A stretch of 64,000 nt of DNA from a virus: IMG/VR virus record IMGVR_UViG_3300035698_011044, positions 1 to 64,000 of that record, one strand, 5' to 3'. Shown in pieces: positions 3,720 through 49,748 of the stretch. How positions within the stretch are numbered: position 1 is the stretch's first letter; each line of letters opens with the position of its first letter. Under the pieces are notes generated by a model. That model did not search any database, had not been told where the DNA came from, and saw only the letters and a program-made list of their open reading frames with translations. Both the position numbers and the translations under genes were made by a program.

Positions 3720-5874
3720 TTTCTATTGACCCCCAAAAGATGTACCCCAGGTTTCTGCTGTATCCAGCGTTGTATGCAGTCTGCATTGAGCGTAGGACCT
3801 CTGCGATCCTATCCTTAGCCAGACCCTCACCGTAGTTTCGTCCAGTAAAAGTCCGAATCTCCGGCTCACTGGTTATAATCATCTCAGTATCCTCATCCAT
3901 GAAAGTGTTTCCACCCCAATCCATGCATCCAATATTGGGGTCAATGACATTCTTGGAGGATATAATAGCATGGGTTTCTCCAATATCGTCAATAATCTCT
4001 TGAGTAAAATTGGTAGAATCGACTTCATGCGTAGAATGAAGGCATGTTACAATCAGAGATTCCCTATGCATCTTTAATTGTATGATGCCATCATCAAACG
4101 TGATAACTTGATCGAGAGAATTGTAATATCCAACCAGATGCTCGTACCCTTGAGGGAACTCGCTATAATAGATCTTCTCTTCCTCTCTCCTAGCAACAAA
4201 CAGGAAGTTGCTACCAATCGCACCAGCATTAGAACGAGGAAGAGGGTCCCAAGCACGCTGTTTTAGCGGCCATGCTCTTATGCGAGCTCGAAGGGTAGTG
4301 TCGGAAACAGTGTCTCTAAAGTTTCTTGTTGAGGCATTAAACGCAGCCACAACTGGACTTGAGATAGTTGCTGAATCTGCAACCTTGACAGATCCTGTGC
4401 TTATAATCGATGTAATGTATTTTGTTGCACCATTAGAGCAGAAGAGAGGCTTGCCAATATCGTCCACAGTCAATGTCAAGGATCCACTTGTCAAGTTTAC
4501 TACTTTCCCTGATTGAGTAAATCGAAATGAATCAGTAGAGCCAATATTAAATGCGCTAAGAAATGCTCCACCACTATATGTTGATCCACCAATGTCTACA
4601 ATTGTGCCTGTAGTAGAGGTTATGACTGTGGCCAATTCTAAAAGTATTCCATCGACTGAGGTAATAACGCATCCAACATCCAGATCTTCAACCGTGCCCA
4701 TCGTTGCAATAAATGTTCCATCAGCCAACACGTGAAGCTCGACAGCTTTTGCAACCGGAATATCTGCAAGCCAAATATAGAGTTCGCTTTGATTCGCCTT
4801 GCCATTGACCGGATCGAATCCCAGATTACCCACATCAAGAGTTGCGTATACGGAGTAATGAGTCCAGTGCCGTTCGCCTATAGTTTTAACAACTTCGCCA
4901 TCATAAGGATTGGTAAGAATCCCGATAGTAACTCCGTTGTCGGTATCGATTTCATCATCAGCGCAAACAGCCGCAAAATCCTTTGTATCTGGATTATAGA
5001 CAACCGTTGCTGATTCGCACTCAATATTAACCCCGGGAGTAGTTCTGTCCCTGCTTCCAGTCCCAGACAGTCTGCTCATCGAATAGACATACCTTCGGCA
5101 GTATGGAGTAGTCTCTGTTGCTGTACCCTGACTTATAAGCTTGACTCTTGGAACACTCGAGTTTGTTTTGAAGACATAGGTAACAGTTTTCTCCAGGTCT
5201 ATCTTATATATGCCATTTGCATTTATTAAAAATGCGTAATTTTCATATTCAACTATTTCTGATGGGGAATCCTGGGGAATCTCCTGAGAAATAGTGTACG
5301 CCTGCTCCCAGCTCGTAACCGCAATGTCTGAAGTAAAGACTCTGCGATCAATAAGCATAATTATCTTACTCAGAGTTTCGTGAACATACAAGGCATTTAC
5401 CGGCCCTCTGCAAGCGCAATTTGCTTGAGCAATAGCAATGTCATCATCTGAGTCGTTTACTGTTATAGAGCCGGTTCCACCCACAGCAATGATTCGGTAA
5501 TGACGATCAATACCAGTTGATACTCCATCCTTCCATACAAAGTAGTTACCAATATCAGAAGATGTAAAATCACCACCATCCGTAACAGTAATTACATTCC
5601 CAGATTTTGTGGCAGTATAGTAGTTCCGCTCAACTCCAGCAACAGTCTTTAGATTGGGAAGTTTTGAATCTGACCAGCGTCTACATCCGCCACGGCCTTC
5701 CAGATACCATCCTTTATTTACAAAGTTTTTAAGCTCTCGCACACCGTTTTCGGGCACTCTATAAGAGGGTCCGTCAAGAAACATGCCCTCAGAGAAGTCT
5801 CTCTGCCTACGGGTAATATCCCGCTCCTGTTGTTGGATTGATCTAGGAGAGAAGTTTGTTCCCGACATTAGCAA
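3712..5874 (-). CDS. Large tail/nozzle-like structural protein (720 aa)
   Basis: The N-terminus runs from a basic arm into a 'RDFSEGMFLDGP..RVPENGVRELKNF' segment that resembles the start of podovirus tail-nozzle or stabilisation proteins, which describe a list of values along a mostly beta chain. The 720-residue body is beta-rich (Thr/Val/Gly/Asp) with no membrane segment. It directly follows the connector gene (7-bp overlap). I infer a tail-hub or nozzle role from size, order after portal-capsid-connector, and composition. A specific family was not established. Confidence 0.6.
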   Translation of the reverse strand: MLMSGTNFSPRSIQQQERDITRRQRDFSEGMFLDGPSYRVPENGVRELKNFVNKGWYLEGRGGCRRWSDSKLPNLKTVAGVERNYYTATKSGNVITVTDGGDFTSSDIGNYFVWKDGVSTGIDRHYRIIAVGGTGSITVNDSDDDIAIAQANCACRGPVNALYVHETLSKIIMLIDRRVFTSDIAVTSWEQAYTISQEIPQDSPSEIVEYENYAFLINANGIYKIDLEKTVTYVFKTNSSVPRVKLISQGTATETTPYCRRYVYSMSRLSGTGSRDRTTPGVNIECESATVVYNPDTKDFAAVCADDEIDTDNGVTIGILTNPYDGEVVKTIGERHWTHYSVYATLDVGNLGFDPVNGKANQSELYIWLADIPVAKAVELHVLADGTFIATMGTVEDLDVGCVITSVDGILLELATVITSTTGTIVDIGGSTYSGGAFLSAFNIGSTDSFRFTQSGKVVNLTSGSLTLTVDDIGKPLFCSNGATKYITSIISTGSVKVADSATISSPVVAAFNASTRNFRDTVSDTTLRARIRAWPLKQRAWDPLPRSNAGAIGSNFLFVARREEEKIYYSEFPQGYEHLVGYYNSLDQVITFDDGIIQLKMHRESLIVTCLHSTHEVDSTNFTQEIIDDIGETHAIISSKNVIDPNIGCMDWGGNTFMDEDTEMIITSEPEIRTFTGRNYGEGLAKDRIAEVLRSMQTAYNAGYSRNLGYIFWGSIENG

Positions 5875-6626
5875 ATCCTCGGAACAGAATGCGTATCTTC
5901 TGGCTGGGCTCCTATTGTCATGTCTCGTTTGAATTTACTCATCCAAGAGAGTTGACCTGGCCTGTCAGTATGAAAAGCGTGCCATCGTTCGGAGGCTATG
6001 CCGTTTTGTTGCTTCTGAACTTTACCAATTACATAGTCTTCCAGAGCTTCTTCATAATATTCGGGTACGATCAGAGGTACACTTTCGGATGTTAATCTTG
6101 GTGCTTCTATTGTGAAAACGATAAAATATTTTTCTGTACTTGAACCAGGATCCTCTTTGAAGATAACCTTGGCTGGGACATTCTCAGTAGCTTCCCATGA
6201 TGCAACTGGAATATCTACCACATTGATACGCTCAAGAGATGTGCTGTATGGATTTTGCCATGAGAAGTGGTAAGGTTGCCCAAACCATCTCGTTCCGTAA
6301 TCGATGTTTGTTGAATCTATAAAGACATTAACGACGGTCCTCGCACGAATGGGATAGTCTATCCCGCCGATTGTGCGAACAAGAGAAGAGATTCCTGTTA
6401 GATAAGTTGCTGTAATATCGTATTCGTATTTCCCAGCAGTTGTTATAAGATAAGGAACCCATCCTTTGTTATCCGTTCCGAGATACTTCATCTGAGCACC
6501 GTCATATCGAAGTAGTAGATCCTGGCCCCTCTCGGCCATTCTCATAATACTACGATTTCCAGTGCTCCGAGAGTACCCCTCACGGATCTGAGGCATTAGA
6601 TCGTCTATTAATGTCTTCAAGCTCAT
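5868..6626 (-). CDS. Head-tail connector/adaptor-like protein (252 aa)
   Basis: 252 residues, beginning with a helix (MSLKTLIDDLMPQI) and ending with a helical segment around 'PEYYEEALEDYVIGKV', an arrangement typical of podoviral adaptor or tail-tubular-A-like proteins, where a late helix carries a Tyr/Ala-Leu-xx-Tyr signature. The middle is beta-rich. It lies between the SAP-like protein and the nozzle-like protein, where a gp4/gp11-type connector is expected. The assignment is by order, size and weak signature. Confidence 0.55.
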   Translation of the reverse strand: MSLKTLIDDLMPQIREGYSRSTGNRSIMRMAERGQDLLLRYDGAQMKYLGTDNKGWVPYLITTAGKYEYDITATYLTGISSLVRTIGGIDYPIRARTVVNVFIDSTNIDYGTRWFGQPYHFSWQNPYSTSLERINVVDIPVASWEATENVPAKVIFKEDPGSSTEKYFIVFTIEAPRLTSESVPLIVPEYYEEALEDYVIGKVQKQQNGIASERWHAFHTDRPGQLSWMSKFKRDMTIGAQPEDTHSVPRIC

Positions 6627-9505: not shown

Positions 9506-11053
9506 CTACAGTCCTTTTAATGCTGGGTTAAGGTCTTCTGGGTCAATATTGTGGTGCTTTGCTGTCTTCACCAGAAGGTCTCTGTCATGGTCAGTCCATT
9601 CGCTGGAGTGCTTTCTCATGACTTTATAAAAATCTTCAGCGGGGATTGCGCCGGCATCAAACTCGCCCTCGCCCTCGCCAACTCTAGTTTCGTTTGCATA
9701 CTTCTTGCGATTTTCAACTGCCTTGGCTTTCTTGCCGTACTTTTCGACCTGTTCCTCGAACCTTGCATCTTCATTAAGAGCCTTGTTTCCCTTAGACGCA
9801 ATTGCAAGTGCTTCGTCCCAACCCATCTCAGACACAATGTTACCAGAAGGGTCAGTTTTTTTATATGTTTGCTTAACCCTACGAATATCGTAGATCTTGT
9901 TAAGGACATCCATATCAACTGGTGGCTTGATATTATATCTTTCAGCAGCAGTGCGCAACTCTTCTCCCGCAGGAGCGTCAACATTAACCATGTCCTGCAT
10001 GGCCTTGTGTACTTGCGCCTTGAATGTATGGCCATCTGCCTCATAAATTCCACCATCAACTCCAATTAAATCGCCAAGATTTTTTGCGTACTCAATGAAA
10101 TCTGTCTCGATCTCGCGAACCGGTCTGCCTTCTCCAAGCACTTTTGCATGAGAGCTACGAAAGTTTTCGATCTCATCATAAGCTTCATCGATCTGTCGCA
10201 CTCTAAGAGCAACAGCGTTATCATTCTGCTGAGTCTTCTGACTCTGTTCCTGAGTCTCTTTGACACTACTAAGCTCAGTTTTAAATTCGTCACGAACAGA
10301 CTGCAATCCCTGGTTATACTTAACAGAATCGTTATGACGAAGCGCATTGAAGCGCTCGTCTTTTGACTTGTTGTAGGTTTCCATCGACTGCTGATACTCA
10401 GTAATCTTATCCTCGTCAAACTGATCGTCTCCTGCAGGAAATGCTGGAATCGGCAAAACCTCCGGAACCTCAACATCCTTGCTCTCTGGATTTTCAGCTT
10501 TTGCTGGAGGATTAGCCTTAAGCTTTTCCTGTTCGTCTTTATATCTCTGAAGCTGCTCTTTGAGAGAAATGTTCTCTGCATTCCTTTGATTAAGCTGTGC
10601 CTCGAGTTTTGGAAGCTTCTTTGTTTTATAAAAATCGATAGTGCTGTCTTTTTCAATACCACCCTTATGAAGCTCCAATACAGCTTCTTCTGGGCTACGG
10701 TTTTTGGCGTAACTTCCAAGCCACGAAGGTTTGATCTTAACGCTGATTTCTTCTTCATCTTGAATATCATCAATATCGCCTGTGTCTTTGTCTACATTGC
10801 CTTCAGCAAGAAGCTCGTCATTGTCTTCCCCTGGCAGCACCTCGTCCTCATCAGATTTTCCTATCAGCCCATCAGGCGACAGTAGTCCCTTTGCTTCAAG
10901 TTCCTCAATATCCTTTAGTGCCTGTTCCCGCAATATAGGATCATTATCCATTGCTTCTTTTAACTCTTCAAAGCTACTATAGCTCTTCGTCTCTTTTTCT
11001 TCTGCACCCTCTACTAAGGTTTGGTCGTCAACTGCGACTCCATCATTTTTCAT
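9506..11053 (-). CDS. Scaffolding protein
   Basis: 515 residues, extremely charged and helical. It has an acidic N-terminal third (many D/E runs to residue 105), a coiled coil at about 150-185, a second long helix at 220-300, and a basic, Lys/His-rich C-terminal end. Such a chain, encoded between portal and coat protein, is the hallmark of a P22-type scaffolding protein that guides procapsid assembly and then leaves; the basic C-terminus would contact the coat. No protease domain is visible. Confidence 0.75.
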   Translation of the reverse strand: MKNDGVAVDDQTLVEGAEEKETKSYSSFEELKEAMDNDPILREQALKDIEELEAKGLLSPDGLIGKSDEDEVLPGEDNDELLAEGNVDKDTGDIDDIQDEEEISVKIKPSWLGSYAKNRSPEEAVLELHKGGIEKDSTIDFYKTKKLPKLEAQLNQRNAENISLKEQLQRYKDEQEKLKANPPAKAENPESKDVEVPEVLPIPAFPAGDDQFDEDKITEYQQSMETYNKSKDERFNALRHNDSVKYNQGLQSVRDEFKTELSSVKETQEQSQKTQQNDNAVALRVRQIDEAYDEIENFRSSHAKVLGEGRPVREIETDFIEYAKNLGDLIGVDGGIYEADGHTFKAQVHKAMQDMVNVDAPAGEELRTAAERYNIKPPVDMDVLNKIYDIRRVKQTYKKTDPSGNIVSEMGWDEALAIASKGNKALNEDARFEEQVEKYGKKAKAVENRKKYANETRVGEGEGEFDAGAIPAEDFYKVMRKHSSEWTDHDRDLLVKTAKHHNIDPEDLNPALKGL

Positions 11054-11065
11054 AGGATAACTCCT

Positions 11066-13222
11066 CTATTCAGCAGGTTCTTGTGGAACCGCATCGGTTT
11101 GAAAACCGCTTTCGAGAACTTGTGGTTCTGCGGGAGCGGGTGATTGGTCATTGGCCAGGTCTGGAGCCGGAGCGGTTTCCATAGGAGGAACTTCTGCACC
11201 ACCATCTACAGGTGGGAGAGTAGCTTCTGGAGACACGTCACCTTCTGCTGCCTGTTTTTCCATTTCATCAAGTTGTTTGAGCTGCTTCTCTAGTTTCTTT
11301 TTCTCAATCTCTAATTGCAGGTCTTGAATCTCCATACCCTTAACAAGAATACCAAGCTCCTTGTTTCCCACTTCGGTAAGAGTTTCGATAACCTCTTCAC
11401 CTAACGAGTCCATTCTCTTCATTGCTTCCATAGAGAGAACCTGGATTGATGCTTGTTTTTCAGGTGGAATTTTGCCAATAAATCTACCAATAGCATCCAG
11501 TTCTTCTAGCTTCTGCATCGGAGACTGCTGCTTTTCGGAGATGATAATTTTGTGTCGAATGTTTTTGAGCTGAGAAGCGTCATTCTTAATAGCCTTGCGA
11601 CCATCAGGAAGATCTACAACCTCGTTTAGTGTTATTGAGTCCGAGCCTTCGCAACACGAGAATTTCCGAGGGAGTCCCTCATTAGAATACGTCTCGGAAG
11701 CCTGTAAAAAGTAGGCTTCATAAACTTCATTCCAAAAGATCCGAAGCCCGTAGTGAATAGTATAGAGTTGCTGATCAGACTGTATTTTAAGCAACTCGAA
11801 AAGTTTCCCAGACTCCTGAGCCCCGCCCTGCATGCCACGCTGTGCTGGAGTAACCTTTGAGATATGGGGAAGAACTGTGTTGATTATGTGATCAAGATGA
11901 GAGTAAACCTCGTTCGGGAAAGCAGAGTTCCGTGTAGGCCGTGCTGGCTCACGTCCATCATCCGCTATTAACCCTGGTCTTACCTCGAAATTTGCTGTAG
12001 GATCGTTTCTGTTCTTTATGTAATTTTTATACTCATTGTCATCAACAAAACCACTTCTATCTACAAACTGAGATCCACCACCACCCTCGGTCTGGATCTT
12101 ATAAGTGAGTAGACTCTCATGATAATTTATGTTTGTCTGAACATCCTTAATAGAGTCAACAATAGAGTGAGACTCTCCATTTGCTCTGGATGCAGACCAG
12201 AAGAAGAATGGAGTCCTACCGATTTGAATCTCGGTCTTCCCGTCTTCCATGATATCTGATTTTGTAAGTGTAGGAACAATTGCCTTGACTTTGCAAACCT
12301 TATTTGTCCGGTCCTCCTCGAAAACGTAGTCTGGTCTCCATGTTGGGTGAAACTCATTCAACCATTGAGGCTTATCGGTATTCTCGAGATTACGAGGTAT
12401 CTCAACCTTACCATTCTCCGTAAGAGCAATTTCAACTTTAGTAATCTCTTCGGTAACAGTATACTCTTCAATGACTCTATGTAGGGATCCCCACATGCCA
12501 TCATCGTATTCCTGGTAGAATGGAGTAACACCATTATATACACCATACTCATCCGGATCAGACTTGCGCATATTCATTGCAGCTTTGATCTCGTATGACT
12601 TTTCTGGATAAATTTCAAGCAGATCTTCTGGTGTGTGCCATGATTCGTGCCAGCACTTCTTGCAAGTTTTGGATCCCCAGTCTTTCCAGTATGGAGAAGC
12701 AAGAGTAGATCCTGGTAAACAGTATTTAAAACCAATATTGCCAAGGTCATCATATTCATTGGAGACAACCATTTTAATAACTGACTCATGTATTAATCCA
12801 CCAGTAACAAGCTGAAGGTAAACGCTGCTCCAATCCATCAGCTCCTTATCGGAGTACATAGCTTTCTTGATTGCCCTAGTTAAGCTAGTCATTTCATCAT
12901 TAACTGGGAAAAATTCTGGATCAAAAGGAACCTGCATGATTCCACCGGCAATTGTATCTACCGCTGGCTTAATAAAATTATAGGTGAGCATCTGACGGTT
13001 TTGACTGGTCATGTACTCTACAGCTTTTGCCGGCCATTGACCCAAGCCAAGATCAGCATCATGCGCCCAGTACATTCGCCAGTTTTCAACCTCGCGACTC
13101 ATTTTTCGCACATAGTAATCCCGAGCATTGCGATATCCCTGAAGAACATTCACTAATCCGTCATGGTATTTTTCGTCCTTTTGGAGAGGACTATCTTTTG
13201 TGTTTTTGCCTATCGTAATCAT
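11066..13222 (-). CDS. Portal protein
   Basis: 718 residues, the size of P22 gp1-like podoviral portals. The N-terminal 'YRNARDYYVRKMSREVENWRMYW' helix, the 'QMLTYNFIKPAVDTIAGGIMQ' segment near residue 100, and a 'SIVDSIKDVQTNINYHES' stretch correspond to the stem and clip features of portals as I know them. The C-terminal 100 residues form a helix followed by a Pro/Ala/Glu tail. It is the first large gene after the promoter at 13584. It would form the dodecameric DNA entry channel. Confidence 0.85.
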   Translation of the reverse strand: MITIGKNTKDSPLQKDEKYHDGLVNVLQGYRNARDYYVRKMSREVENWRMYWAHDADLGLGQWPAKAVEYMTSQNRQMLTYNFIKPAVDTIAGGIMQVPFDPEFFPVNDEMTSLTRAIKKAMYSDKELMDWSSVYLQLVTGGLIHESVIKMVVSNEYDDLGNIGFKYCLPGSTLASPYWKDWGSKTCKKCWHESWHTPEDLLEIYPEKSYEIKAAMNMRKSDPDEYGVYNGVTPFYQEYDDGMWGSLHRVIEEYTVTEEITKVEIALTENGKVEIPRNLENTDKPQWLNEFHPTWRPDYVFEEDRTNKVCKVKAIVPTLTKSDIMEDGKTEIQIGRTPFFFWSASRANGESHSIVDSIKDVQTNINYHESLLTYKIQTEGGGGSQFVDRSGFVDDNEYKNYIKNRNDPTANFEVRPGLIADDGREPARPTRNSAFPNEVYSHLDHIINTVLPHISKVTPAQRGMQGGAQESGKLFELLKIQSDQQLYTIHYGLRIFWNEVYEAYFLQASETYSNEGLPRKFSCCEGSDSITLNEVVDLPDGRKAIKNDASQLKNIRHKIIISEKQQSPMQKLEELDAIGRFIGKIPPEKQASIQVLSMEAMKRMDSLGEEVIETLTEVGNKELGILVKGMEIQDLQLEIEKKKLEKQLKQLDEMEKQAAEGDVSPEATLPPVDGGAEVPPMETAPAPDLANDQSPAPAEPQVLESGFQTDAVPQEPAE

Positions 13223-13470
13223 TTGACCACCATTGCAACAGTTTCAGTATAGATTGTGCGGTCTTTTGGATCACGCACTTCTCGTGTTATCAAGCCGTCA
13301 GCATCAACAGTATGCCGATACCCGACACTACACCTTTGACAGAAATGTACAGCGCTATTAGGTTTGTCTGTTTGGAACTCGCCAAGATACGCACCACACG
13401 GCTTTCGTCTACTGGCCCTTTTAGTGGAATCGCATTTTACTTGCTGGAATGTGCCTTTAGATGTGTCCAT
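13219..13470 (-). CDS. Com-like small zinc-finger protein (83 aa)
   Basis: 83 residues with Cys-x12-Cys (C13, C26) and Cys-x2-Cys (C45, C48) framing a 'GAYLGEF' turn. This matches the layout of the Mu Com family zinc-finger translational activators. It is the first gene of the structural operon and its stop overlaps the portal start (ATGA), so it is coupled to portal translation. Its role as an RNA-binding regulator is inferred from family resemblance only. Confidence 0.55.
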   Translation of the reverse strand: MDTSKGTFQQVKCDSTKRASRRKPCGAYLGEFQTDKPNSAVHFCQRCSVGYRHTVDADGLITREVRDPKDRTIYTETVAMVVK

Positions 13471-13583
13471 AAATTAAGCCCTACCCCTCGTTAGAAGAGC
13501 AGAGCTCGTAGGTACACGGAAATGTTTAAAGATAAAACTCATTTGGAGCGCCCCAAAGTCGTTCTTCCCTGCACCTATTAACT
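13471..13583 (-). promoter_or_regulatory. Leader of the structural operon
   Basis: About 105 nt of untranslated leader lie between the predicted start site and the ATG at 13470. It has a weak TTTGG/CCAAA hairpin at about 13542-13557 and no recognised ORF. The ribosome binding site of the first gene is poor (GGGGTAGGGC region). Confidence 0.4.
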
Positions 13584-13612
13584 ATTATACTTTAAGGTTT
13601 AGGGAAAAGCAA
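13584..13612 (-). promoter_or_regulatory. Promoter of the structural operon
   Basis: On the minus strand TTGCTT (13607-13612) is followed, after exactly 17 nt, by a perfect TATAAT (13584-13589). Transcription would begin near 13577, about 110 nt before the Com-like gene. It separates the glycosyltransferase island from the virion genes and looks like host sigma70-type recognition. Confidence 0.75.
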
Positions 13613-13632
13613 TCTTTTTCAAAAACATCGTG

Positions 13633-15990
13633 CTACATAATGCTGTCACTGATGTTTTTGAAGACACGACCAATCTCTTTTGAATCTTTGATTGCAGCAT
13701 CACTCAGATTTTTGAAATCCACATCGAGTTTTAGGTCTGCCCAGAACAAGCTATTTTCAGCATTTAAGCGAACAGGATGCTTTGAAGCTTTCCGATATAC
13801 CCCCAAATGAATACCATGCTCTGCAATCATATTCGGTTTGCCGTCAACTACCTTTATGCCGGAATTTCTAACTATTCTCAGAAGCATCTCCTCATCGTAA
13901 CCCTTCTTGACTTTCTCGATTTTCTCCAATTTATCGAGTTCGTTTTCTCTTGCATCCCTGGTACGGTCCCACCAGTCACGACTAATGAAGTGAACCCCGA
14001 GCATCCTATTATCGACAGCATGATTGTCGTAGCACTCAAGCCCATACACACTCATAGAGGCGACATGCTGCTCGATAAGAGAGGGTTCCTCTTTCCTGAT
14101 AAGGATATCGATATCGGTGAGTAATACGTGGTCGTACTTTTTGAGACGCTCTTCTACTTCTGGAGACACGAATCGGAGGGCTGCAGCTTTATTTCCATCA
14201 GACTCGCTGAGTTCGATGCATACAACGGCGTCTCCAGGGTAAGCTTTTTCGGCGCAATACTTAAACATGTCGGCATAGGCAACCATCTTCTTATTATAGA
14301 CAACAGCGATGGCGCACGCACAGCGTGTTCCGTTTCCAGTGGAATCCATTGGGATGCCACCTTCGACTGGACTTATTTCTTCAGTTTTAACATTTAAAGC
14401 AGGTTTATTGCAAGATTCTTCCACAAAAGACTCTTTAGGTTTCTCTTTTTCAACATTAAGAGGAGCTTTGGCAGGAGACAGACTTGCCATCATTAAGCGA
14501 TACTTAGCCATTTTGCTTGGCACTCCCCAGTCCGGATGACCCTTTCCGAATCCTGCAGGAAGTTCAAATTCAGCATAAGGACGATTGTCGGTTTTGGTTA
14601 CAGCCACACTCTTTGGGGCAACTAGGTTCTGACGGATAGGTTGAATTGTACCAGCATTAATGCCATCGCCAGGCTTCACCATGAATCCATGCTTTTTCCG
14701 AAGGTTCCACTTTGCTCTCTTGCTTGGGACATTCCAGTCAGGATGACCCTCTCCGAAATCTGCAGGAAGACCATCGTCAAACTGCTCAACAATATCTGAT
14801 AGGTTTTCGTACACATAGACTCTGCGATCAGACATGCTGTCCTCGCGATTAGTATCCTTGTCTATAAAGCTAGTTGCGCCGGCAAGAAGAAGATCGTCGA
14901 TGAGAGGTTGGGGTCCGGTTCCGTTTGTCACAATCTTGATCGGCATATTTGGACGCGCTTTCCTTAAATGCGCAACGAGCTCTACGATACCCGGGTAAAG
15001 AGTAGGCTCTCCTCCAGTAATACGAATAGAGTCACAGCCTCCGAAGAGTGCCAGATTCGCAGTGCTCTTTGCCATGGCAAGAGGAATGAGATGCGGCAAA
15101 GAAGTATCGTCAATAGTTTTGCAGCCTTCACACCGACGATTACATGCTCTTCCAATAAATACTTCTGAAATTTTTCCCTCTTCCATACCGCTAAACTCCT
15201 TGTAATGGTTAATGTTGTTTATGATTACTTCTGGTAATTGCGAGCTATCTATCTGGACAATAGACTTCCAGGAACTCTCTGCCCCCACTGTTGGATGAAA
15301 ATCCTGAGCGTTCGGCAACTTGTCCCACTTATCTTTAATCCAGAGGTCCATATCGACGCACTCTGCCCCGTCCCCGATATGAGAGGTAATCATCTTGCCT
15401 TTAATCTCTTCCAGGCTCTCTCGCACTGCTGTGAAGTGGTGGAACTTGACGTCAAGCTCTGCTATGCTGGGAATAGCCGACCCACGGATCCCTGCAAAGT
15501 CTTTGATATCTGCCTTAACGAATACGACTGGCCTGCAGCGCTCTTCCGGATAAACTCTGTAGAAGATCGACTTAACATAAGTATGCATCCCACAGCGAAA
15601 CGCATCATTGTGACCATCATTTAGCATCACGGACTGAATTGCCTGGCGAAGCTGATCTACATCCCAGACCTCATCTGTGTCGATGAGCATAATGTAATCA
15701 CAGGGACGATGGTCTGAAAAATTAGCGAGTCTTATACGAGAGAATCCCGCCTCATAATGACTTGCTTGGTCTGCGTAAGAACCTCTAGCAAACCGAATTT
15801 TTTCATCAAGATCATATCTTCTTCCCCAATCCAACTGTCGTTGATAGCAAGTATTTTCGACAGGATTTCCGCTCCAGTCCACATTGGAATGTATAAACAA
15901 AATATTATCCACGAAGGGATAGATCGATTCGAGACTCGCCTCTAGGAACTCATGAGCCCTGGTTGTTTTATAGAGTGCTGTTATTTTCAT
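13633..15990 (-). CDS. Glycosyltransferase-radical SAM-glycosyltransferase fusion protein (785 aa)
   Basis: Three modules are visible. Residues 1-270 are a GT-A-like glycosyltransferase with a DTDE motif (104-107). Residues 275-400 hold the front half of a radical SAM domain: Cys283-x3-Cys287-x2-Cys290, which binds a 4Fe-4S cluster in that superfamily, then GGEP (326-329). Residues 555-785 are a second glycosyltransferase with TDIDIL (625-630). Between them two copies of a 24-residue unit containing GHPDW and VPSK occur at about 408-431 and 477-500. It is the last gene of the island. The radical SAM part looks short (no clear fifth and sixth strands), so activity is uncertain. Confidence 0.75.
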   Translation of the reverse strand: MKITALYKTTRAHEFLEASLESIYPFVDNILFIHSNVDWSGNPVENTCYQRQLDWGRRYDLDEKIRFARGSYADQASHYEAGFSRIRLANFSDHRPCDYIMLIDTDEVWDVDQLRQAIQSVMLNDGHNDAFRCGMHTYVKSIFYRVYPEERCRPVVFVKADIKDFAGIRGSAIPSIAELDVKFHHFTAVRESLEEIKGKMITSHIGDGAECVDMDLWIKDKWDKLPNAQDFHPTVGAESSWKSIVQIDSSQLPEVIINNINHYKEFSGMEEGKISEVFIGRACNRRCEGCKTIDDTSLPHLIPLAMAKSTANLALFGGCDSIRITGGEPTLYPGIVELVAHLRKARPNMPIKIVTNGTGPQPLIDDLLLAGATSFIDKDTNREDSMSDRRVYVYENLSDIVEQFDDGLPADFGEGHPDWNVPSKRAKWNLRKKHGFMVKPGDGINAGTIQPIRQNLVAPKSVAVTKTDNRPYAEFELPAGFGKGHPDWGVPSKMAKYRLMMASLSPAKAPLNVEKEKPKESFVEESCNKPALNVKTEEISPVEGGIPMDSTGNGTRCACAIAVVYNKKMVAYADMFKYCAEKAYPGDAVVCIELSESDGNKAAALRFVSPEVEERLKKYDHVLLTDIDILIRKEEPSLIEQHVASMSVYGLECYDNHAVDNRMLGVHFISRDWWDRTRDARENELDKLEKIEKVKKGYDEEMLLRIVRNSGIKVVDGKPNMIAEHGIHLGVYRKASKHPVRLNAENSLFWADLKLDVDFKNLSDAAIKDSKEIGRVFKNISDSIM

Positions 15991-16247
15991 AAATCATCTT
16001 TCGAAGAGTCGCCATACAAAACAACTGCCCCCTTAAACTTCTCGTGACAATCTTCACCGTGATCAAGACCGCCATCATCATTTAATATGTGGTAGACCTG
16101 CACAACAACGTGCTGAACATCCAAAATTACGCATCCATCAGATTCTAACGGATGCTTGAATGTGTCCTTGTTAATCATAACCGATTTGTGCGAATACCCA
16201 CTATTCATCAAATTCCCAAGTTTTTTGTATAATGTTCTTAACTGCAT
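15987..16247 (-). CDS. Small unrecognised protein (86 aa)
   Basis: 86 residues with a basic N-terminal helix (MQLRTLYKKLGNLM) followed by a His/Val/Asp-rich beta-like half. The stop overlaps the start of the fusion protein (ATGA), so the two are translationally coupled. No family is recognised. Confidence 0.55.
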   Translation of the reverse strand: MQLRTLYKKLGNLMNSGYSHKSVMINKDTFKHPLESDGCVILDVQHVVVQVYHILNDDGGLDHGEDCHEKFKGAVVLYGDSSKDDL

Positions 16248-16249
16248 AA

Positions 16250-16450
16250 CTATTCCTCACTTTCGATTTCATTTGTTCTCACCTTCATATATGGACAGTC
16301 TGGATGGATGGTACGCGTATCGCACTCTTTGTCAACATTAACATATCTGTTACTGTCTATTTCTGAGCATATTACCCCTACGTGTTCATCGTACTCAGAC
16401 GCTGGACAGTCATCACAGCTAGTTACTGTGCGCTTATATTCAAAACTCAT
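16250..16450 (-). CDS. Cys-rich small protein (66 aa)
   Basis: I place the start at 16450, where ATGA overlaps the upstream stop and GAGGGG is close by; an earlier in-frame ATG at 16489 would lie inside the upstream gene. The 66 residues contain Cys at five positions (CDDC, C, C, C), suggesting a metal or disulfide site. The acidic tail ends in IESEE. Function unknown. Confidence 0.55.
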   Translation of the reverse strand: MSFEYKRTVTSCDDCPASEYDEHVGVICSEIDSNRYVNVDKECDTRTIHPDCPYMKVRTNEIESEE

Positions 16451-16713
16451 TGCCCCTCGCAATCCATTGTCACTCTCAGATGAGCGCACTCTCTTCCATG
16501 AATGTTTGCAACAATCTCATCCTGACAGAGATTCCCTTGATTGTTTTCGCAAGCAATCTGAAAACACTTAAGCTCCGACAATCTTCCGTCAGCCTTAGCT
16601 TCTGCCCACGCTGCTCCAGCACGAAACGCATCTGCACGCTGGTTTGCTTCTTTATATCTAGCCCAACTCATTCCGTCTTCATATCCTACAACTGCCTCGT
16701 CGATACTTTGCAT
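16447..16713 (-). CDS. Small protein with A-R-GA-W-A motif (88 aa)
   Basis: The ATG at 16713 has GAGG 8 nt upstream; a GTG at 16725 is the alternative. The phrase 'RADAFRAGAAWAEAKADGRL' near the middle is common in short phage proteins of unknown role. Four Cys lie in the C-terminal half. It sits between a glycosyltransferase gene and the Cys-rich gene. Confidence 0.55.
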   Translation of the reverse strand: MQSIDEAVVGYEDGMSWARYKEANQRADAFRAGAAWAEAKADGRLSELKCFQIACENNQGNLCQDEIVANIHGRECAHLRVTMDCEGQ

Positions 16714-16721
16714 ACTATTCC

Positions 16722-17441
16722 TCACTTCTCAAGTTGATATTTACCTGGAAAGGAAAACGCTGAGAATTTATCATTCCCAACAAGCTCCCATTTATACCCA
16801 TGACTCTGATACCGTTCTACATCTGCATCGAGCTGGTGTTTAATACTCTTCAGGTTCCCGCCTGACTTCCCCTGGTAGTGGATAATGGGAGAGCTGGTCA
16901 GGATTGCTGTACATAAGTCTCGCATATAAACTTGCTGGAAGATCCAGTCGTCTCCGCAAAACCATTCAATATCTTCAGGTATAGAAACGTAGAGGTTCTT
17001 CCTGACAGTGAAATCCCAGCCCTGCTTAATCCCTGTTTGGCACACATAGCTCAATCCTGTCTTCTTAGAATACTTCTCCAGGTTGGTAGTATGGACAACA
17101 GCTCCAACAGTTTCCTCTTTCTCAAAAACCTTGAGAGTGTCAGAGATGAAGTTGCTGGTGATCTCAATATCGTTATTCAGGAAGCATAGCAGCTCATCAC
17201 CAGTCTCTTTAGCGAACCAGTTCCATAGATGATTGAGAGGAGTGTTCCCCGTTCCGAGCACAATCTTAAAGCCAAACATCTTGCGGATCTCTTCGTAGTA
17301 CGCTTCAGTCCCAGGCTCAGTGGATCCGTTATCGTAAATGGTCAGCTTGAACGGAGCGTCCTGGTAGAGAAGATCGCTTACAAGTTGCTTCGTGTAAGCA
17401 AGATTGTTTATGTTTACTATTAAGCAGTGGACGTTATTCAT
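16722..17441 (-). CDS. Family-2-like glycosyltransferase
   Basis: 239 residues with the GT-A layout: an N-terminal strand (HCLIVNINNL), 'TIYDNGST' nucleotide-sugar region near 35-40, 'LCFLNNDIEIT' as the DxD-type metal motif near residue 90, and an acceptor-side acidic 'FCGDDWIFQQVYMRD' near 170. It would transfer a sugar from a nucleotide donor to an unknown acceptor. It overlaps the 119-aa gene upstream by 8 bp and belongs to the same operon-like run. Confidence 0.8.
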   Translation of the reverse strand: MNNVHCLIVNINNLAYTKQLVSDLLYQDAPFKLTIYDNGSTEPGTEAYYEEIRKMFGFKIVLGTGNTPLNHLWNWFAKETGDELLCFLNNDIEITSNFISDTLKVFEKEETVGAVVHTTNLEKYSKKTGLSYVCQTGIKQGWDFTVRKNLYVSIPEDIEWFCGDDWIFQQVYMRDLCTAILTSSPIIHYQGKSGGNLKSIKHQLDADVERYQSHGYKWELVGNDKFSAFSFPGKYQLEK

Positions 17442-17793
17442 TGAGAGCTTCTCGAATCACACTTGCGAGGTTATGCAATTTCAATTCCCATACACGAGAA
17501 AAATTGGCCGGAGCGCGAAAAGAGTATTCCTCCATAAGATCTGCGGATTTTCCCAACAACGCTAGACCTCCATTGGGTGCTTCAGGGGAGGCTAGATCCT
17601 GCAGATTGGTGTCACGCAAGAGTAGTCCATGACCTGCTAACTCTTTACGCAGACCAGCAAAGGTTATTCTAGCATTTAAGCATGCTTTACCGTAATCAAA
17701 CTTAACATGATCACCGCAATCACGAATATTCTCTATACGATCGAGATTTATAAACTGCTGTACTCCCGCCGCATCAACAACTTCAATAAACAT
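17434..17793 (-). CDS. Unrecognised island protein (119 aa)
   Basis: 119 soluble residues, beginning 'MFIEVVDAAGVQQFINLDRIENI', which reads like a small beta domain, then a helical C-terminal half ending with 'NLASVIREALNE'. No catalytic motif is evident. It lies between two glycosyltransferase genes. Role unknown. Confidence 0.6.
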   Translation of the reverse strand: MFIEVVDAAGVQQFINLDRIENIRDCGDHVKFDYGKACLNARITFAGLRKELAGHGLLLRDTNLQDLASPEAPNGGLALLGKSADLMEEYSFRAPANFSRVWELKLHNLASVIREALNE

Positions 17794-17804
17794 ACTATTT
17801 CTCC

Positions 17805-18407
17805 TTATCTCGGTTGATTCCTGCTTCCTGCAGGGTGAAGAGTGTAGAGATATTTCACACTGTCAGGAACTGTACACATACAGAGCCCCTGCCTAACTAT
17901 CTCATCGACGATTGCTTTGTTGTAATCATAATCCTCAAACTCAGTGTCAGGCCACTTGATATGAAAGAGAGCCTTCCCGATCAAATAACTTCCCACCGTG
18001 TACATATTAGAGCCTTTGTCGAGAGCCGCTTTAAGCTGAAGAGCAGTATCCCATCGCTTACATGGCCAGCCTGGACAACCCGTTGGAGCTGTCTTGAACT
18101 GAGAATAATCTTCTGCTGCAATATGCTCTGCGTCATACATGATGAAATCAGCCTTATGCTTTATGCAATCCAGAAGATCCTCGCACACAAAATCTTCCGT
18201 AATGCAATCGTCATCATCCAAGAAGAGAATGTAATCTCCCTTTGCGTGCTGGACACCGTTATTGCGGTGCTCATAGGGAAGCTTCTCCCCGATCATAGCA
18301 ACTATCTCGTAATCAACCTTGCCCTTAAATGCGTTGTGGACTGAATTGAATGCTCGCTCCAGATAGAATGGCCTGAGTCCGAGGGATGGTATAACTACTG
18401 ATATCAT
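17805..18407 (-). CDS. Family-2-like glycosyltransferase
   Basis: The start at 18407 overlaps the upstream stop as ATGA; a longer frame to 18434 would run into the neighbour. The 200 residues begin 'MISVVIPSLG', with 'GDYILFLDDDDCITEDF' as the metal-binding region near residue 75 and a late 'WPDTEFEDYDY' acidic cluster. This is a canonical single-domain GT-A enzyme with no membrane segment. Confidence 0.85.
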   Translation of the reverse strand: MISVVIPSLGLRPFYLERAFNSVHNAFKGKVDYEIVAMIGEKLPYEHRNNGVQHAKGDYILFLDDDDCITEDFVCEDLLDCIKHKADFIMYDAEHIAAEDYSQFKTAPTGCPGWPCKRWDTALQLKAALDKGSNMYTVGSYLIGKALFHIKWPDTEFEDYDYNKAIVDEIVRQGLCMCTVPDSVKYLYTLHPAGSRNQPR

Positions 18408-28305: not shown

Positions 28306-29096
28306 AACTTTCTTTCTGCAACAGTATATTCAGAAGCCTTGTCAAAGTTTTCTCGAATAGCCTTTTGTCTTTTATTATAATTTAGTTCCGTAGCATTGAC
28401 AAGCAATCTCTCCAATTCACTTAAATTACTAAACCATAACACTCCACGCTTATTGAAATAATCAGCAATTTTATTCGCCCCCCAATAGATAGGAATAGTC
28501 CCAGTCCTGAAAGCGTCTACAATTTTCTCGGTAAATAAATGGTCTGATTTATCATTCTCAACAACAATGGTATACCGGTATCGTTTAAGAGCTTCAAGCT
28601 TCTCTTCTATCTCATAATATCCACGTCCGCACAGGAAATCAATCTTGTACGCAAACCTCTCGGCTATCCTATGCCGGAGCTTATGACCTTTAGTATCATT
28701 TTTGCTAGAAGCAATCATTGAAATACCCTGAGTCTTGGGATAGATAAATTGCTGATCCGGATGAACCCAGCATCCTCCTGGGGACAAAAGGATATGCTTT
28801 GGTGATAAGATATACTTGGCCTCCGGAAGAACAATCCAGTCAAAATCGTCCTGCCCGCCATTGAAGATATATTTATAGGCTTCAGGGTTAATTACCTCTG
28901 GCTCCAATAGCCAAGCAATCTTGATCTTAGCACCAGAAGTCTTTGCTTCACGAAAACATTGATCCGTAAACACAGCAATATCCTGCGACTCTTCGCCACG
29001 ACACCACTCGAAATAACCGATATCGACATCGTATATGCCATTCTGGTAATTGTAGGTATGTGCAAAATTCTTGTCATGTAATTTAATCTTTACCAT
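28275..29096 (-). CDS. GT10-like (fucosyltransferase-type) glycosyltransferase
   Basis: AAGGAG lies 6 nt before the ATG at 29096. The 273 residues contain 'FTEKIVDAFRTGTIPIYWG' near 200-220, closely matching the alpha-1,3-fucosyltransferase (GT10) nucleotide-binding motif, with 'YRYTIVVENDKSDHLFTEK' just before it. This GT-B family normally uses GDP-fucose. The sugar is therefore inferred from family. It is the only GT10-like gene seen in the island. Confidence 0.75.
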   Translation of the reverse strand: MVKIKLHDKNFAHTYNYQNGIYDVDIGYFEWCRGEESQDIAVFTDQCFREAKTSGAKIKIAWLLEPEVINPEAYKYIFNGGQDDFDWIVLPEAKYILSPKHILLSPGGCWVHPDQQFIYPKTQGISMIASSKNDTKGHKLRHRIAERFAYKIDFLCGRGYYEIEEKLEALKRYRYTIVVENDKSDHLFTEKIVDAFRTGTIPIYWGANKIADYFNKRGVLWFSNLSELERLLVNATELNYNKRQKAIRENFDKASEYTVAERKLWEKLLKDLV

Positions 29097-29844
29097 GCGG
29101 ATCTCCTTGGATCTTCTTATACGGTTCTTTTGCTTTAATTCTCCACGTGCAGTTTGACTGCTCTCCACCTGGCCTTTTGTGTTCAGACAAATTGTTCAGC
29201 CCATTATAGCAATATAATATATCTTCAACGAACCTTGAGTGTTCATGTCCAGCCATTTCGATTACAGGAGCCATGATTGCCAAATCTCCAGCCATTGGAT
29301 AAAACTCACCATTTTCATCAATCAGGTCTTCAGGCTTGATTAGCCTAAACAGCCACACCCTAAACGTCCTCAAGTGAGATATGAGCCATGGCTTGTTAAC
29401 ATCCCTAGCGTCCGCAAGATCTTCCTGCAGTGCAGCCCACCCAACAGCAACACCGCTTCTTTCTGTGTAAATCTCATAGCTTCCGTAAGAAGTCCACACT
29501 TTAGGATCACTATAGATCTGCTGCACTCTATCAAAAACATTGTTGTGTGGCAACCAATCATCACCATCGACGTTTATGCAGATATCTTCCGGGCGGATCT
29601 CTGGGCGATTTAATGTGTGATAATAATTACCTGCGACAAATCTCTTCTCTGTGTTTTGAATGAAGACGAATCTCCCATCAGTATCCGCAAACACCTTAAT
29701 CTTCTGAGGAGTTTCGTCAACAGAGAGGTCGTCTATAATATAACACACCCAATCTTCAACGCTCTGAGACTTGATTGACTCGAGACATCTCTCGATATAA
29801 TCTTCGCAATTCCAGCAAGTAGTTACTATTCTGAGCATTTGCAT
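29083..29844 (-). CDS. Family-2-like glycosyltransferase, tandem paralog A
   Basis: 253 residues: 'RIVTTCWNCEDYIERCLES' N-terminus, 'IIDDLSVDETP', and 'EDICINVDGDDWLPHN' as the DxDD motif. From 'HLRTF' to 'EMAG' it aligns nearly residue for residue with the product of the next gene upstream (29826), so the two arose by duplication. A second ATG at 29838 is possible. It overlaps the paralog's end by 19 bp. Confidence 0.85.
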   Translation of the reverse strand: MQMLRIVTTCWNCEDYIERCLESIKSQSVEDWVCYIIDDLSVDETPQKIKVFADTDGRFVFIQNTEKRFVAGNYYHTLNRPEIRPEDICINVDGDDWLPHNNVFDRVQQIYSDPKVWTSYGSYEIYTERSGVAVGWAALQEDLADARDVNKPWLISHLRTFRVWLFRLIKPEDLIDENGEFYPMAGDLAIMAPVIEMAGHEHSRFVEDILYCYNGLNNLSEHKRPGGEQSNCTWRIKAKEPYKKIQGDPHGKD

Positions 29845-30575
29845 TTCAACTTTCTGTACTGAGGCTTCTCTTTTATCTTCCAGCCGAGCCGCATCTGCAG
29901 CTTCTTGTTTTTGTTCCAGTCTGACACTGGATTATCAGCTCGGTATTTATATAACACCTCTTTAATGAACTTTGAATTTTCCAAGCCAGCCATCTCAAGC
30001 ATTGGTATCATTATTGCAAGATCTCCAGCCATTGGATACCAAATTCCATCGGACCCTATAAGGTCTTCCCGTTTAATCTTCCTGAAGAGCCAGGTTTTAA
30101 ATGTCCTGAGATGAGACGCATTCCAGTTTTTGTTTGGATCTCTGAGATCATCAATACTCTCGATCTGCTTGGAATTTCCACGAATGATATTGTTCGGTTC
30201 CGCAATGCAGTCAAAGCTACCGTAAGTAATCCATACATCAGGATCTTCGTATTCTCGTAGCACAACTCCAAGAACACCATTGTGGGCAAGAGAGTCGTCG
30301 CCATCCACGTTGATACAAATATCCTCTGGATGGAACTGAGAGAGATGAACTACAGAATAACAGTTTCCTGGAACATAAAGTTTTCGGTAATTTGAAAGAA
30401 CTGAAAATCGAGAATCATCCTTAGTCAGCTCTCGCGCCCGCTCCCATGTTCTGTCTGTAGACATGTCGTCAAGAATGTAGCACTCCCACTCCTGGACAGT
30501 CTGAGCTTTAATGGAGATAATGCACTGCTCTATATATCGAACACAGTTCCAGCATGGAACAATTATCCTTATCAC
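29826..30575 (-). CDS. Family-2-like glycosyltransferase, tandem paralog B
   Basis: 249 residues starting 'MIRIIVPCWNCVRYIEQCIIS' with 'ILDDMSTDRT' and 'EDICINVDGDDSLAHN'. The shared 'YPMAGDLAIM' and 'PEDICINVDGDD' blocks show duplication with the downstream gene. Differences concentrate in the C-terminal third, where acceptor binding is expected, suggesting specialisation after duplication. Coupled to the GT4-like gene by 4 bp. Confidence 0.85.
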   Translation of the reverse strand: MIRIIVPCWNCVRYIEQCIISIKAQTVQEWECYILDDMSTDRTWERARELTKDDSRFSVLSNYRKLYVPGNCYSVVHLSQFHPEDICINVDGDDSLAHNGVLGVVLREYEDPDVWITYGSFDCIAEPNNIIRGNSKQIESIDDLRDPNKNWNASHLRTFKTWLFRKIKREDLIGSDGIWYPMAGDLAIMIPMLEMAGLENSKFIKEVLYKYRADNPVSDWNKNKKLQMRLGWKIKEKPQYRKLKCKCSE

Positions 30576-35107: not shown

Positions 35108-37171
35108 TTAAGTCATCCATCCACTGCCGGAGGACGCATTACTAACACCTCTCTCAGCCTGAGCTACTTCTCTCCACCGTCCTGCTGCGGTTTGTGCTGC
35201 GAGATTCTTGAGATACCTCGTGTGTTCATTGGAGTAATTTTTCATCTTATGCTGCCGAGGAGACATTCTGCCGGTCTCCCAGAGAGATGAGACGATATTA
35301 CTGAGCGCCCTGCACAATCCATGTCCCGGGGCTGGTTTGTTGCGCTCCATTGTCCAAGAACTCATTTGCCGAGAAAGCTTCTGACACTTTGCGTGTATTA
35401 CAAGCTTCTTCCTGGAGAGTAATCTGCTAACATAAGTAATGGATCCAAGTTCATCGTATTTATGGTTAGGTCTCAGATTATACTTCAGCTTCCGGTATGC
35501 AGACCGAGTATCACCTCCGGCCTTTCCAAACATCTTCGGGCTACCATACCACTCGAAAGCTCTCATATCTCTTAATATACCATTGGTATCTGCTTTTAGC
35601 ATCTCTGTAAGTGCAACAGCCGTAATTTGTGGCCGAGTAGTTCCAGAGACATATTCATCAAAAACAACGAGCCTTCCAGTTTTAGCCGTCCAAAGCATGA
35701 AGAGAACGCTGGTTGAGTAGTCGTCGTCAATCCACTCGCTGCAGAGGAGAATAGTCCGGTCATCGAGCCCCTCCCATCCAATATTAAATTCTGCAGTTTC
35801 CCCACGGTACTCCTTAAAGATTCGCTTCTCCAACTTCAAAATCTTATTCCCGCCCGATACCGCATCCACGCCATCACGTTTTCCAAATGGGAACGCTACG
35901 CACTGCGCAATGAAAGCCTTGTTCCAATTAGCACGAAGGAGATACACTCCTCCCTGTTCAGCAAGTGCATTCCATGGCCTAGCCCTCTCCACCTTTTTAC
36001 CGCTCGGAGGATCCCCGATAACAATTCTGTCCGCCAACACATTCCTGGTGTAATGATCTGTCACGAATTTTCCGGAAGAACCTTTCTCCTCCTCGATTGC
36101 GACTCTGACATCCGGCCCATCCATATCTGCACAGGCTCGAACCTTCTTCTCTGTATTCGCTGGCAACTCTTTGAACATGGTGATATCTGCAATATAGAGG
36201 TTTGCCCCCTGATACCCCACGAGGGCCCCTGCAGTGAAGTCTGGATCATTATCCTCCTTCTCTTCGGTTGCAGCGAAATCCCAGTACCTGAGCCATTCTA
36301 CGCCGTCTGGGAGTATGTCTAGGTATTTGAACCACTCAGCTCTGAACATTCCCTTCTTGGAAGAGATATTCCAGTTACCTTTGAGTAGTTGTTCACGAGT
36401 AACTGCATCCTGCATTGATAATTTTCTAGCGTAGTCAGCATCACCCTCTGGATTATCAGAGAGTAGCGCTGGAATAAACGTGAATGAATAAGGAGGAAAT
36501 CCCTCTTCATCGATGAAATCTTTATCTACCCATGTAATTATGTCGTCCACAACGACAAAGTATCGAACAACCCCACTCCGCTCTGCAATCGGATAACCAT
36601 TTTCGCCAATCCACCAATCAACGAGAGTTCTTACCCAGCCACCAATTGGATCCTCTTCCTCCCCGCTGGTTGGATTGCAAGTAGCTCGGGTATAACATTT
36701 TCGGTCATACCCATTCGCCTGCCTATTCCTGGTGAGGAGATAAAAGAACATCTTCCTGGTAAAGTGAGTAAGCTCATCAAATCCGAGAAAGGCAATCTGA
36801 TCTCCCTGGTGATCGATTGTATTCTTCTCATGTTCGAGATGTGAGAATGATATCTCTGAGCCCGAAGGAAATCTCCACTTGAGTCTGTTCTCAACCGGCA
36901 CTCCTCCTTGAGTAGGAAATAACTGCATAGAAGTATCCCAGAGTCCACCTGAGCTTGTTACTTGCTTACCGGTTCTCCTGAAGATCGTTGCAGTGAATCG
37001 TGGATGACTAACGTGTCGAAGTGGATCCAGAAGCATAGCATAAGATTTTCCCCCGCCGGCAGCCCCGCCATATAGCACAAAATCTGCCTTCGACTCCAGG
37101 AATTTAGTCTGGGGTCCAGGGTTTGCCCTGATCACATTATAAGTAACTCCGTCTATTACTTCGAGGGGCAT
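35108..37171 (-). CDS. Terminase large subunit with C-terminal extension
   Basis: 687 residues. The ATPase domain has Walker A 'GGAAGGGKSY' (35-44) and 'IAFLGFDEL' as Walker B. The first RNase H-type nuclease runs from 'RYWDFAATEEKEDNDPDFTAGALV' (about 290) to 'DGVDAVSGG' (about 440), already a complete Terminase_6C-like domain. A further 240 residues follow with 'GRLVVFDEYVSGTTRPQ', which looks like a second terminase-type RNase H fold. It packages phage DNA into the procapsid. Overlaps the small subunit by 16 bp. Confidence 0.85.
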   Translation of the reverse strand: MPLEVIDGVTYNVIRANPGPQTKFLESKADFVLYGGAAGGGKSYAMLLDPLRHVSHPRFTATIFRRTGKQVTSSGGLWDTSMQLFPTQGGVPVENRLKWRFPSGSEISFSHLEHEKNTIDHQGDQIAFLGFDELTHFTRKMFFYLLTRNRQANGYDRKCYTRATCNPTSGEEEDPIGGWVRTLVDWWIGENGYPIAERSGVVRYFVVVDDIITWVDKDFIDEEGFPPYSFTFIPALLSDNPEGDADYARKLSMQDAVTREQLLKGNWNISSKKGMFRAEWFKYLDILPDGVEWLRYWDFAATEEKEDNDPDFTAGALVGYQGANLYIADITMFKELPANTEKKVRACADMDGPDVRVAIEEEKGSSGKFVTDHYTRNVLADRIVIGDPPSGKKVERARPWNALAEQGGVYLLRANWNKAFIAQCVAFPFGKRDGVDAVSGGNKILKLEKRIFKEYRGETAEFNIGWEGLDDRTILLCSEWIDDDYSTSVLFMLWTAKTGRLVVFDEYVSGTTRPQITAVALTEMLKADTNGILRDMRAFEWYGSPKMFGKAGGDTRSAYRKLKYNLRPNHKYDELGSITYVSRLLSRKKLVIHAKCQKLSRQMSSWTMERNKPAPGHGLCRALSNIVSSLWETGRMSPRQHKMKNYSNEHTRYLKNLAAQTAAGRWREVAQAERGVSNASSGSGWMT

Positions 37172-48766: not shown

Positions 48767-48818
48767 GTATAAGAAAACATGTTATATTTAAGATACTATT
48801 AATAACAGTTTGCGTTAA
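48767..48818 (-). promoter_or_regulatory. Promoter of the ATPase gene with repressor operator
   Basis: On the minus strand TTAACG (48813-48818), 17 nt, TATCTT (48790-48795), followed by an operator GTATAAG-7-GTTATAT (48767-48787) over the start site. The TATCTTAA[A]TATAACA block is shared with the promoter at 58804. It lies partly inside the end of the patatin gene. Confidence 0.6.
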
Positions 48819-49717
48819 TAGTTTTGTTGTATTAATTTTGAATAATCAATATTTCTGGAAAGGGCATATCCAATTCCCTCATAGGTATCATTGTATTCTA
48901 CTGCGTCCATCTTGTCCATTTTTGCCGGTATCTTCTGGTCGCTATGTTGGAATGTTACATTTCGTTTTGTGCGAGCAATTTCCCTCATGTCTTGAACAGA
49001 AGATCTAATTGACTCGGCACGAGCAAGACCGCCATGTTTAGGACTCAAAAATGCCATAACCTGCTTCCCCGCACGAGCCCTAATTGCGTCTTTGTAACTC
49101 ATAGAATAATCTGACCACCCACAACCCAGGGATAAAATGTGGATCCGTTTGTCGTCCCAGCCCTGACGATTGATTTCTACCCATGCCTGACGGAGAGGAG
49201 AGTTTGCTCCGCCACATCCGCCATCCATCCAAACTTCTTTTTCGATAGGATCTATCATCGAACCAAAAAATAGGGGAGCTGCGAAAGATCTACAGACCAC
49301 TTCAGTGAGTGCAAGTTTTCCGTCCTTTGGCTCCCAGCTTTTAAAGTAGTGTGTCCGGCCAGATACAAGTCCAAAGGAAGTGCTCATGAACCTAGTGTCC
49401 ATATCTTCCATCTGGAGGTGAGGCCCAATATTATCGTGCAAAAGGTTGGAGACTTTTTTGCGATCGTACTTTGGGATCCTGAAGAATCTTTTTTTGAAAA
49501 TGTCCGGCAAATTCTTCATTGCAAGATCGTGACTCGTGCCTGCTGTTATTCGGCCAGAAGCCATGAGAGCCCCGTTAATCGATCCGGCAGAGGTTCCAAC
49601 TATAAGGTCGAAGATGTCACTGATCGACATTTTTACGCGCTGCTCTATCATTTTGAGCTGCATCGATTCTATTGGGAGTTTATCTCCTCCGCCTGCTAAT
49701 ACGAGTACACGTTTCAT
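48815..49717 (-). CDS. Patatin-like phospholipase
   Basis: 300 residues from the ATG at 49717 (GGGAATGG upstream; a longer frame to 49792 is less likely). 'LAGGGDKLPIES' forms the glycine-rich oxyanion hole, 'IVGTSAGSINGALM' carries the GxSxG nucleophile, and 'MDGGCGGANSPL' the DGG dyad, i.e. a complete patatin active site. It would cleave membrane lipids. It is unusual in phages, but it resembles effector lipases of anti-phage systems. Soluble, no signal. Confidence 0.85.
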   Translation of the reverse strand: MKRVLVLAGGGDKLPIESMQLKMIEQRVKMSISDIFDLIVGTSAGSINGALMASGRITAGTSHDLAMKNLPDIFKKRFFRIPKYDRKKVSNLLHDNIGPHLQMEDMDTRFMSTSFGLVSGRTHYFKSWEPKDGKLALTEVVCRSFAAPLFFGSMIDPIEKEVWMDGGCGGANSPLRQAWVEINRQGWDDKRIHILSLGCGWSDYSMSYKDAIRARAGKQVMAFLSPKHGGLARAESIRSSVQDMREIARTKRNVTFQHSDQKIPAKMDKMDAVEYNDTYEGIGYALSRNIDYSKLIQQNY

Positions 49718-49748
49718 AAGCCATTCCCATTTGGGTTGTATGTAAAGA

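Follow-up and report, generated by a model that had tools for sequence, protein, structure and literature searches.

A phage open reading frame joining a glycosyltransferase domain, half of a radical SAM domain and a duplicated HPDW module

A 785-amino-acid open reading frame was characterized in a 64,000-nucleotide stretch of viral DNA (the window), which is part of an 87,553-bp IMG/VR virus record. In a single chain it joins an N-terminal glycosyltransferase domain (NGT), a partial radical SAM domain, two HPDW modules, a linker and a C-terminal putative glycosyltransferase domain (CGT). The reading that we favour, and hold to be fairly probable, is that neighbouring genes of a phage glycan cassette were fused in this lineage, with transferases that are likely active and a radical SAM half that is likely a remnant. 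We take the fusion to be real and unusual and the cassette to be a variant of a kind already known from phages; its radical SAM part is unproven and probably crippled.

The fusion and its surroundings comprise the following features:

35108–37171, minus strand: terminase large subunit (TerL), at the other end of the cassette (tblastn to phage TerLs)
16722–31570, minus strand: glycosyltransferase/methyltransferase cassette in the same direction (PF00535, Methyltransf_24/11, Glycos_transf_1 and other matches)
15987–16247, minus strand: 86-aa open reading frame upstream of the fusion, its stop overlapping the fusion ATG (ATGA, 15987–15990)
13633–15990, minus strand: fusion open reading frame, NGT, partial radical SAM, HPDW, HPDW, linker, CGT (open frame, ATG start; identical in contig L002)
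15217–15990, minus strand: NGT, residues 1–258, GT2/GmaR-like GT-A (stand-alone homologues; family profile matches to GmaR and PF00535)
15670–15681, minus strand: DTDE, DxD-type motif, residues 104–107 (invariant positions in the family alignment)
14857–15183, minus strand: partial radical SAM domain, residues 270–378, strands 1–4 only (PF04055, AlphaFold2, Foldseek)
15121–15144, minus strand: CX3CX2C cluster motif CNRRCEGC, residues 283–290 (cysteines invariant in the alignment)
15004–15015, minus strand: GGEP motif, residues 326–329 (alignment and motif scan)
14689–14793, minus strand: HPDW module copy 1, residues 400–434 (homologous units in two adjacent genes of L010 and L011)
14482–14583, minus strand: HPDW module copy 2, residues 470–503 (placed relative to CGT as in the relatives)
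14317–14481, minus strand: Pro/Lys/Glu-rich linker, residues 504–558 (from the sequence; far shorter in the relatives)
13636–14316, minus strand: CGT, residues 559–785, putative GT-A with TDIDIL (~46% identity to the C-terminal halves of the L010 and L011 proteins)
13219–13470, minus strand: Cys-rich 83-aa open reading frame between fusion and portal (similar open reading frame at the same place in L010, 3157–3438, by eye)
11066–13222, minus strand: P22-like portal protein, the positional anchor common to the relatives (PF16510, 5e-32; relatives 60–61%)

The fusion open reading frame and its genomic setting

The frame is intact and runs on the minus strand, which the earlier note on this DNA did not specify; the plus strand of the same interval has 16 stops in the same frame. 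A motif scan with residue numbering recovered all of the motifs listed in that note, and the three-domain anatomy and repeat that it described are right. An IMG/VR contig of 6,973 bp (L002), possibly from the same sample as the window, is 100% identical to window positions 11014–17986, the fusion and both flanks included, which argues against a frameshift or chimaera at this open reading frame. The fusion is known from one sequence and this identical copy, that is, from one population, as would be expected of an assembly chimaera or a decaying pseudogene. Such an origin is nevertheless very improbable in view of the identical contig with both flanks, the 785 open codons with junctions in frame, the overlap with the upstream open reading frame and the retention of the motif residues.

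A glycan cassette located between terL and the portal gene, within the structural region, ends with the fusion; the Cys-rich open reading frame, the portal and the major head protein all lie downstream. Six matches to PF00535 are present in the record. Two adjacent GT2 genes of the cassette (29083–29844 and 29826–30575, minus strand) share 46% mutual identity and constitute a tandem duplication. The nearest matches of the window TerL (35108–37171, minus strand) are Methanoculleus virus TerLs (43% over residues 14–463), with a C-terminal portion of ~220 residues extending beyond those matches. The TerL of a related virus (L019:1997–6142, minus strand; 1,381 aa) apparently contains two inteins, as judged by eye, and the window TerL has none. 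A patatin-like phospholipase gene is located at 48815–49792 of the window (minus strand; PF01734, E-value of 8.6e-12).

The radical SAM half

The radical SAM part matches Pfam PF04055 with an E-value of 2.2e-12 over profile positions 3–102 of 166, in agreement with the half-length domain with CxxxCxxC and GGEP that had been proposed. Residues C283, C287 and C290 are invariant in an alignment of 38 sequences (the fusion and 37 relatives), and the GGE motif is present at the end of strand 2. An AlphaFold2 model based on the 38 sequences has pLDDT values of 90–97 over most of the region of about residues 272–378, and values below 50 after about residue 382. Within residues 270–400, the region that the earlier note singled out for structure prediction, approximately 272–378 are predicted to fold as a partial radical SAM barrel, with the three cysteines within one stretch of eight residues; the barrel comprises strands 1–4 only, rather than six β-α units. 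Foldseek matches this part to BlsE, HydE, viperin and MoaA over about 102–110 columns (r.m.s.d. of ~2.4–3.3 Å), and also to BtrN (about 105 residues) and to phage radical SAM proteins in BFVD.

Against full-length homologues (MAG contigs and a huge phage), the radical SAM part aligns from strand 1 to approximately strand 4 and helix 4, and stops short of strand 5; the SxSLDACC segment of strand 4 is altered in the fusion. The first HPDW unit follows the radical SAM part after only ~20–30 residues, too few to hide strands 5–6. The C-terminal auxiliary cluster region of SPASM/twitch proteins is absent, and the HPDW module and linker occupy its place.

The fusion shares the CX3CX2C, GGEPT and TNG motifs and strands 1–4 with a MoaA/twitch-like radical SAM family of ~325 aa (huge phages LR745208 and LR756501; contigs L024, L025, L043 and L057). 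The members of this family have ~180 further residues, comprising strands 5–6 and a Cys-containing C-terminal part, of which the fusion has none. Identity is 55% over 58 aa to the LR745208 protein and ~27–31% to other members; retention of all the cysteines, GGEP and the TNG asparagine at such low identity to the full-length family could reflect constraint for function. The radical SAM homologue in LR745208 (L008:5767–6825) keeps GGEP, but CX3CX2C is missing from its open frame. In the LR756501 protein (L009:3395–4891) a full-length radical SAM domain of this kind is joined to an N-terminus that appears cyclase/GGDEF-like by eye. Matches to NCBIfam models (MoaA, NrdG2, HxsC and others) were far below cut-off, and no specific radical SAM function is therefore claimed. 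Orthology to a radical SAM gene of a related contig (L011:6417–7259) is unsupported (25% over 90 aa, E-value of 0.014), and no radical SAM gene of that contig is clearly orthologous to the part found in the fusion.

In known enzymes, strands 5–6 contribute to SAM binding. The half-barrel, as modelled, could still bind an iron–sulphur cluster; independent radical catalysis by it is doubtful. The earlier note proposed that the protein could coordinate sugar transfer with radical modification. This is unproven, and the lack of strands 5–6 and of any C-terminal part for substrate binding weakens it. The radical SAM part is probably the N-terminal half of a once full-length MoaA/twitch-like enzyme; by itself the half probably performs radical catalysis no longer, and it probably now serves for linking or scaffolding.

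Probable transferase domains and HPDW modules

Two GT-A-like domains had been postulated. The N-terminal one is borne out through its relatives; the C-terminal one has the motif pattern and no family match. NGT by itself has no Pfam match. Its family of six members, which includes three more distant homologues, gives a profile that matches GmaR (PDB entry 22ao, E-value of 7.3e-6), and half of the members match PF00535 (3/6, best E-value of 1.5e-9). Residues D104, D106 and E107 are invariant in the six-member alignment, where the DxD-type motif follows a hydrophobic strand (IMLIDTDE). These family matches and invariant residues make the assignment of NGT to the GT2-type glycosyltransferases, by homology, a good one, and the domain is probably an active transferase. 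It shares with GT2/GmaR-like GT-A enzymes the N-terminal β-α-β start and the DTDE motif, and differs from them in being fused at its C-terminus to the radical SAM half and in lying below Pfam detection. GmaR is a flagellin glycosyltransferase, so protein glycosylation stays possible.

Stand-alone homologues of NGT are encoded on L011 (2972–3739; 34% identity, E-value of 6e-44) and, as the closest relative found, on an Omnitrophota contig (L104:1459–2247; 43% identity in the alignment). A search of 145 Omnitrophota genomes yielded a strong homologue in one (E-value of 7e-53), and none was found by tblastn in INPHARED phages. An Omnitrophota bacterial contig (L108:8802–14522) contains, from open reading frames read by eye, a prophage-like stretch with a terminase, glycosyltransferases, methyltransferases, a radical SAM gene and the nearest NGT homologue; this stretch is a possible hint to the host of the phage in the window.

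CGT is ~46% identical to the C-terminal halves of L010:1610–3088 and L011:8172–9650. Its DxD-type motif (DIDI at residue 626) follows a hydrophobic strand (HVLLTDIDI), and TDIDIL is invariant in the three CGT sequences. Downstream are NRMLGVHFI and then YDEEMLLRIV, a succession that we take, as a lead, to resemble GT8-type enzymes. Judged by its motifs, CGT is probably a second GT-A transferase of GT8-like type. It has no glycosyltransferase match in Pfam, PDB or PHROG, and no CGT was found by tblastn in INPHARED phages or in searches of 84,980 genomes and 384 Omnitrophota genomes. A full-length AlphaFold2 model (seven sequences, mean pLDDT of 45, about 40 in CGT) served solely to read secondary structure in residues 1–125, within NGT, and 300–380; its Foldseek matches to glycosyltransferases are not assignable to one domain. 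When NGT and CGT were compared, profile to profile, with the GT2 proteins of the cassette, using shallow alignments, no signal emerged.

The repeat described in the earlier note is present in two copies, with HPDW at residues 416 and 485, 69 residues apart. The best ungapped self-alignment of 24 residues scores 98 and the best of 25 shuffles only 40, which places the repeat far above chance. Applied to the window genome, L010 and L011, a 35-column profile detects six copies and no more. The fusion contains two of them; L010 and L011 each have a pair of adjacent genes with one copy apiece, which is C-terminal in one of the two proteins and lies between domains in its neighbour. The DNA pattern for HPDWx[IV]PSK, an exact codon pattern that misses variants, occurs in only three records among 2.9 million viral contigs, all of this lineage, and in none of the 384 genomes of the Omnitrophota phylum. 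DNA-pattern matches to GHPDW in L003, L004 and L005 lie in unrelated frames and are due to chance. A role of the module in docking or targeting is a guess.

Gene order in related viruses and readings of the fusion

L010 and L011 were found with the portal as anchor, at 60–61% portal identity. Reading L011 towards the portal, a SPASM radical SAM protein comes first, then a probable glycosyltransferase (by eye) and the NGT homologue as its own gene. A split TPP-enzyme-like pair follows, and then two radical SAM proteins, the first of them B12-binding. A protein with an HPDW unit at its end and a GT2-HPDW-CGT protein of 492 aa come last. L010 has the same last genes before the portal; in both, a full-length radical SAM gene precedes the HPDW-ending gene, which precedes the gene for GT2-HPDW-CGT. 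The split pair (E1_dh and Transket_pyr; L011:4015–5162) lies within the glycan cassette, adjoined by the B12-binding protein (5161–6417). Like the fusion, the GT2-HPDW-CGT protein has the homologous C-terminal domain behind an HPDW unit, and its gene occupies the same position in the genome. It differs in that its N-terminal part is another GT2, it has no radical SAM part and its HPDW unit is single.

The module order of the fusion (NGT, radical SAM, HPDW, HPDW-CGT) is that of the L011 genes, and the same portal adjoins. Since the modules are mostly separate genes in the relatives, in the same order, we read the protein as a fusion that arose when the sequence between them was lost: a deletion between adjacent cassette genes would have joined NGT, the radical SAM half, HPDW and HPDW-CGT in one frame, with CGT carried behind an HPDW unit as in the relatives. 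No genome intermediate between separate genes and fusion was found. The idea of a conserved machine, with the same fusion in other phages, did not hold: the fusion is absent from all collections searched, and the two nearest viral relatives have separate adjacent genes.

The protein might instead be a working three-enzyme assembly line, in which two transfers are separated by a modification of the sugar or acceptor, carried out by a minimal radical SAM domain, and the HPDW modules are docking pieces. All cluster and GGE residues are kept, the half-barrel is predicted to fold confidently and the intact frame has a long linker; in addition, full radical SAM and B12-radical SAM enzymes stand beside glycosyltransferases in the relative, so radical chemistry is at home in the cassette. 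The missing strands 5–6 and SPASM or other substrate-binding part, the lack of a second occurrence and the separate proteins that keep these functions in the relatives nonetheless make this reading unlikely. A single-chain glycan-modifying enzyme, with a catalytic four-strand radical SAM domain between two glycosyltransferases, held by a ~35-residue HPDW docking module shared among the glycosyltransferases of the lineage, is quite unlikely.

The same anatomy would fit a radical SAM half that works in trans, binding the cluster and SAM only together with a host or phage partner protein. Small radical SAM activases such as NrdG act on a partner protein. No partner with strands 5–6 was seen, however, and this part is the sole radical SAM match (PF04055) in the 87.5-kb record (the relative has four, three of them above cut-off); we regard the possibility as slight.

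Under the favoured reading of a fusion with likely active transferases, the protein would most likely act late in infection, attaching one sugar or two to a glycan or protein of the phage or its host; candidate acceptors are a host surface glycan, with blocking of superinfection, or a virion protein. Pelagimyophages have hypervariable cassettes of glycosyltransferase and radical SAM genes, which are believed to modify the surface of the host (PMC7029224). Like the locus described here, these are glycosyltransferase-rich with radical SAM gene cassettes; they consist of separate genes in the tail-fibre region, whereas the window has a fusion beside the portal gene. A record also exists of a huge virus, an anoxic one, that encodes 15 radical SAM enzymes (PMC9723712).

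An active half-barrel would be a radical SAM catalytic unit of unusually small size, with radical chemistry directly and physically coupled to glycosyl transfer. Even if it is inactive, the locus shows phage glycan cassettes changing by fusion of neighbouring enzymes, and HPDW represents a small new module that recurs on glycosyltransferases in a single phage lineage, with no occurrence elsewhere in the searches.
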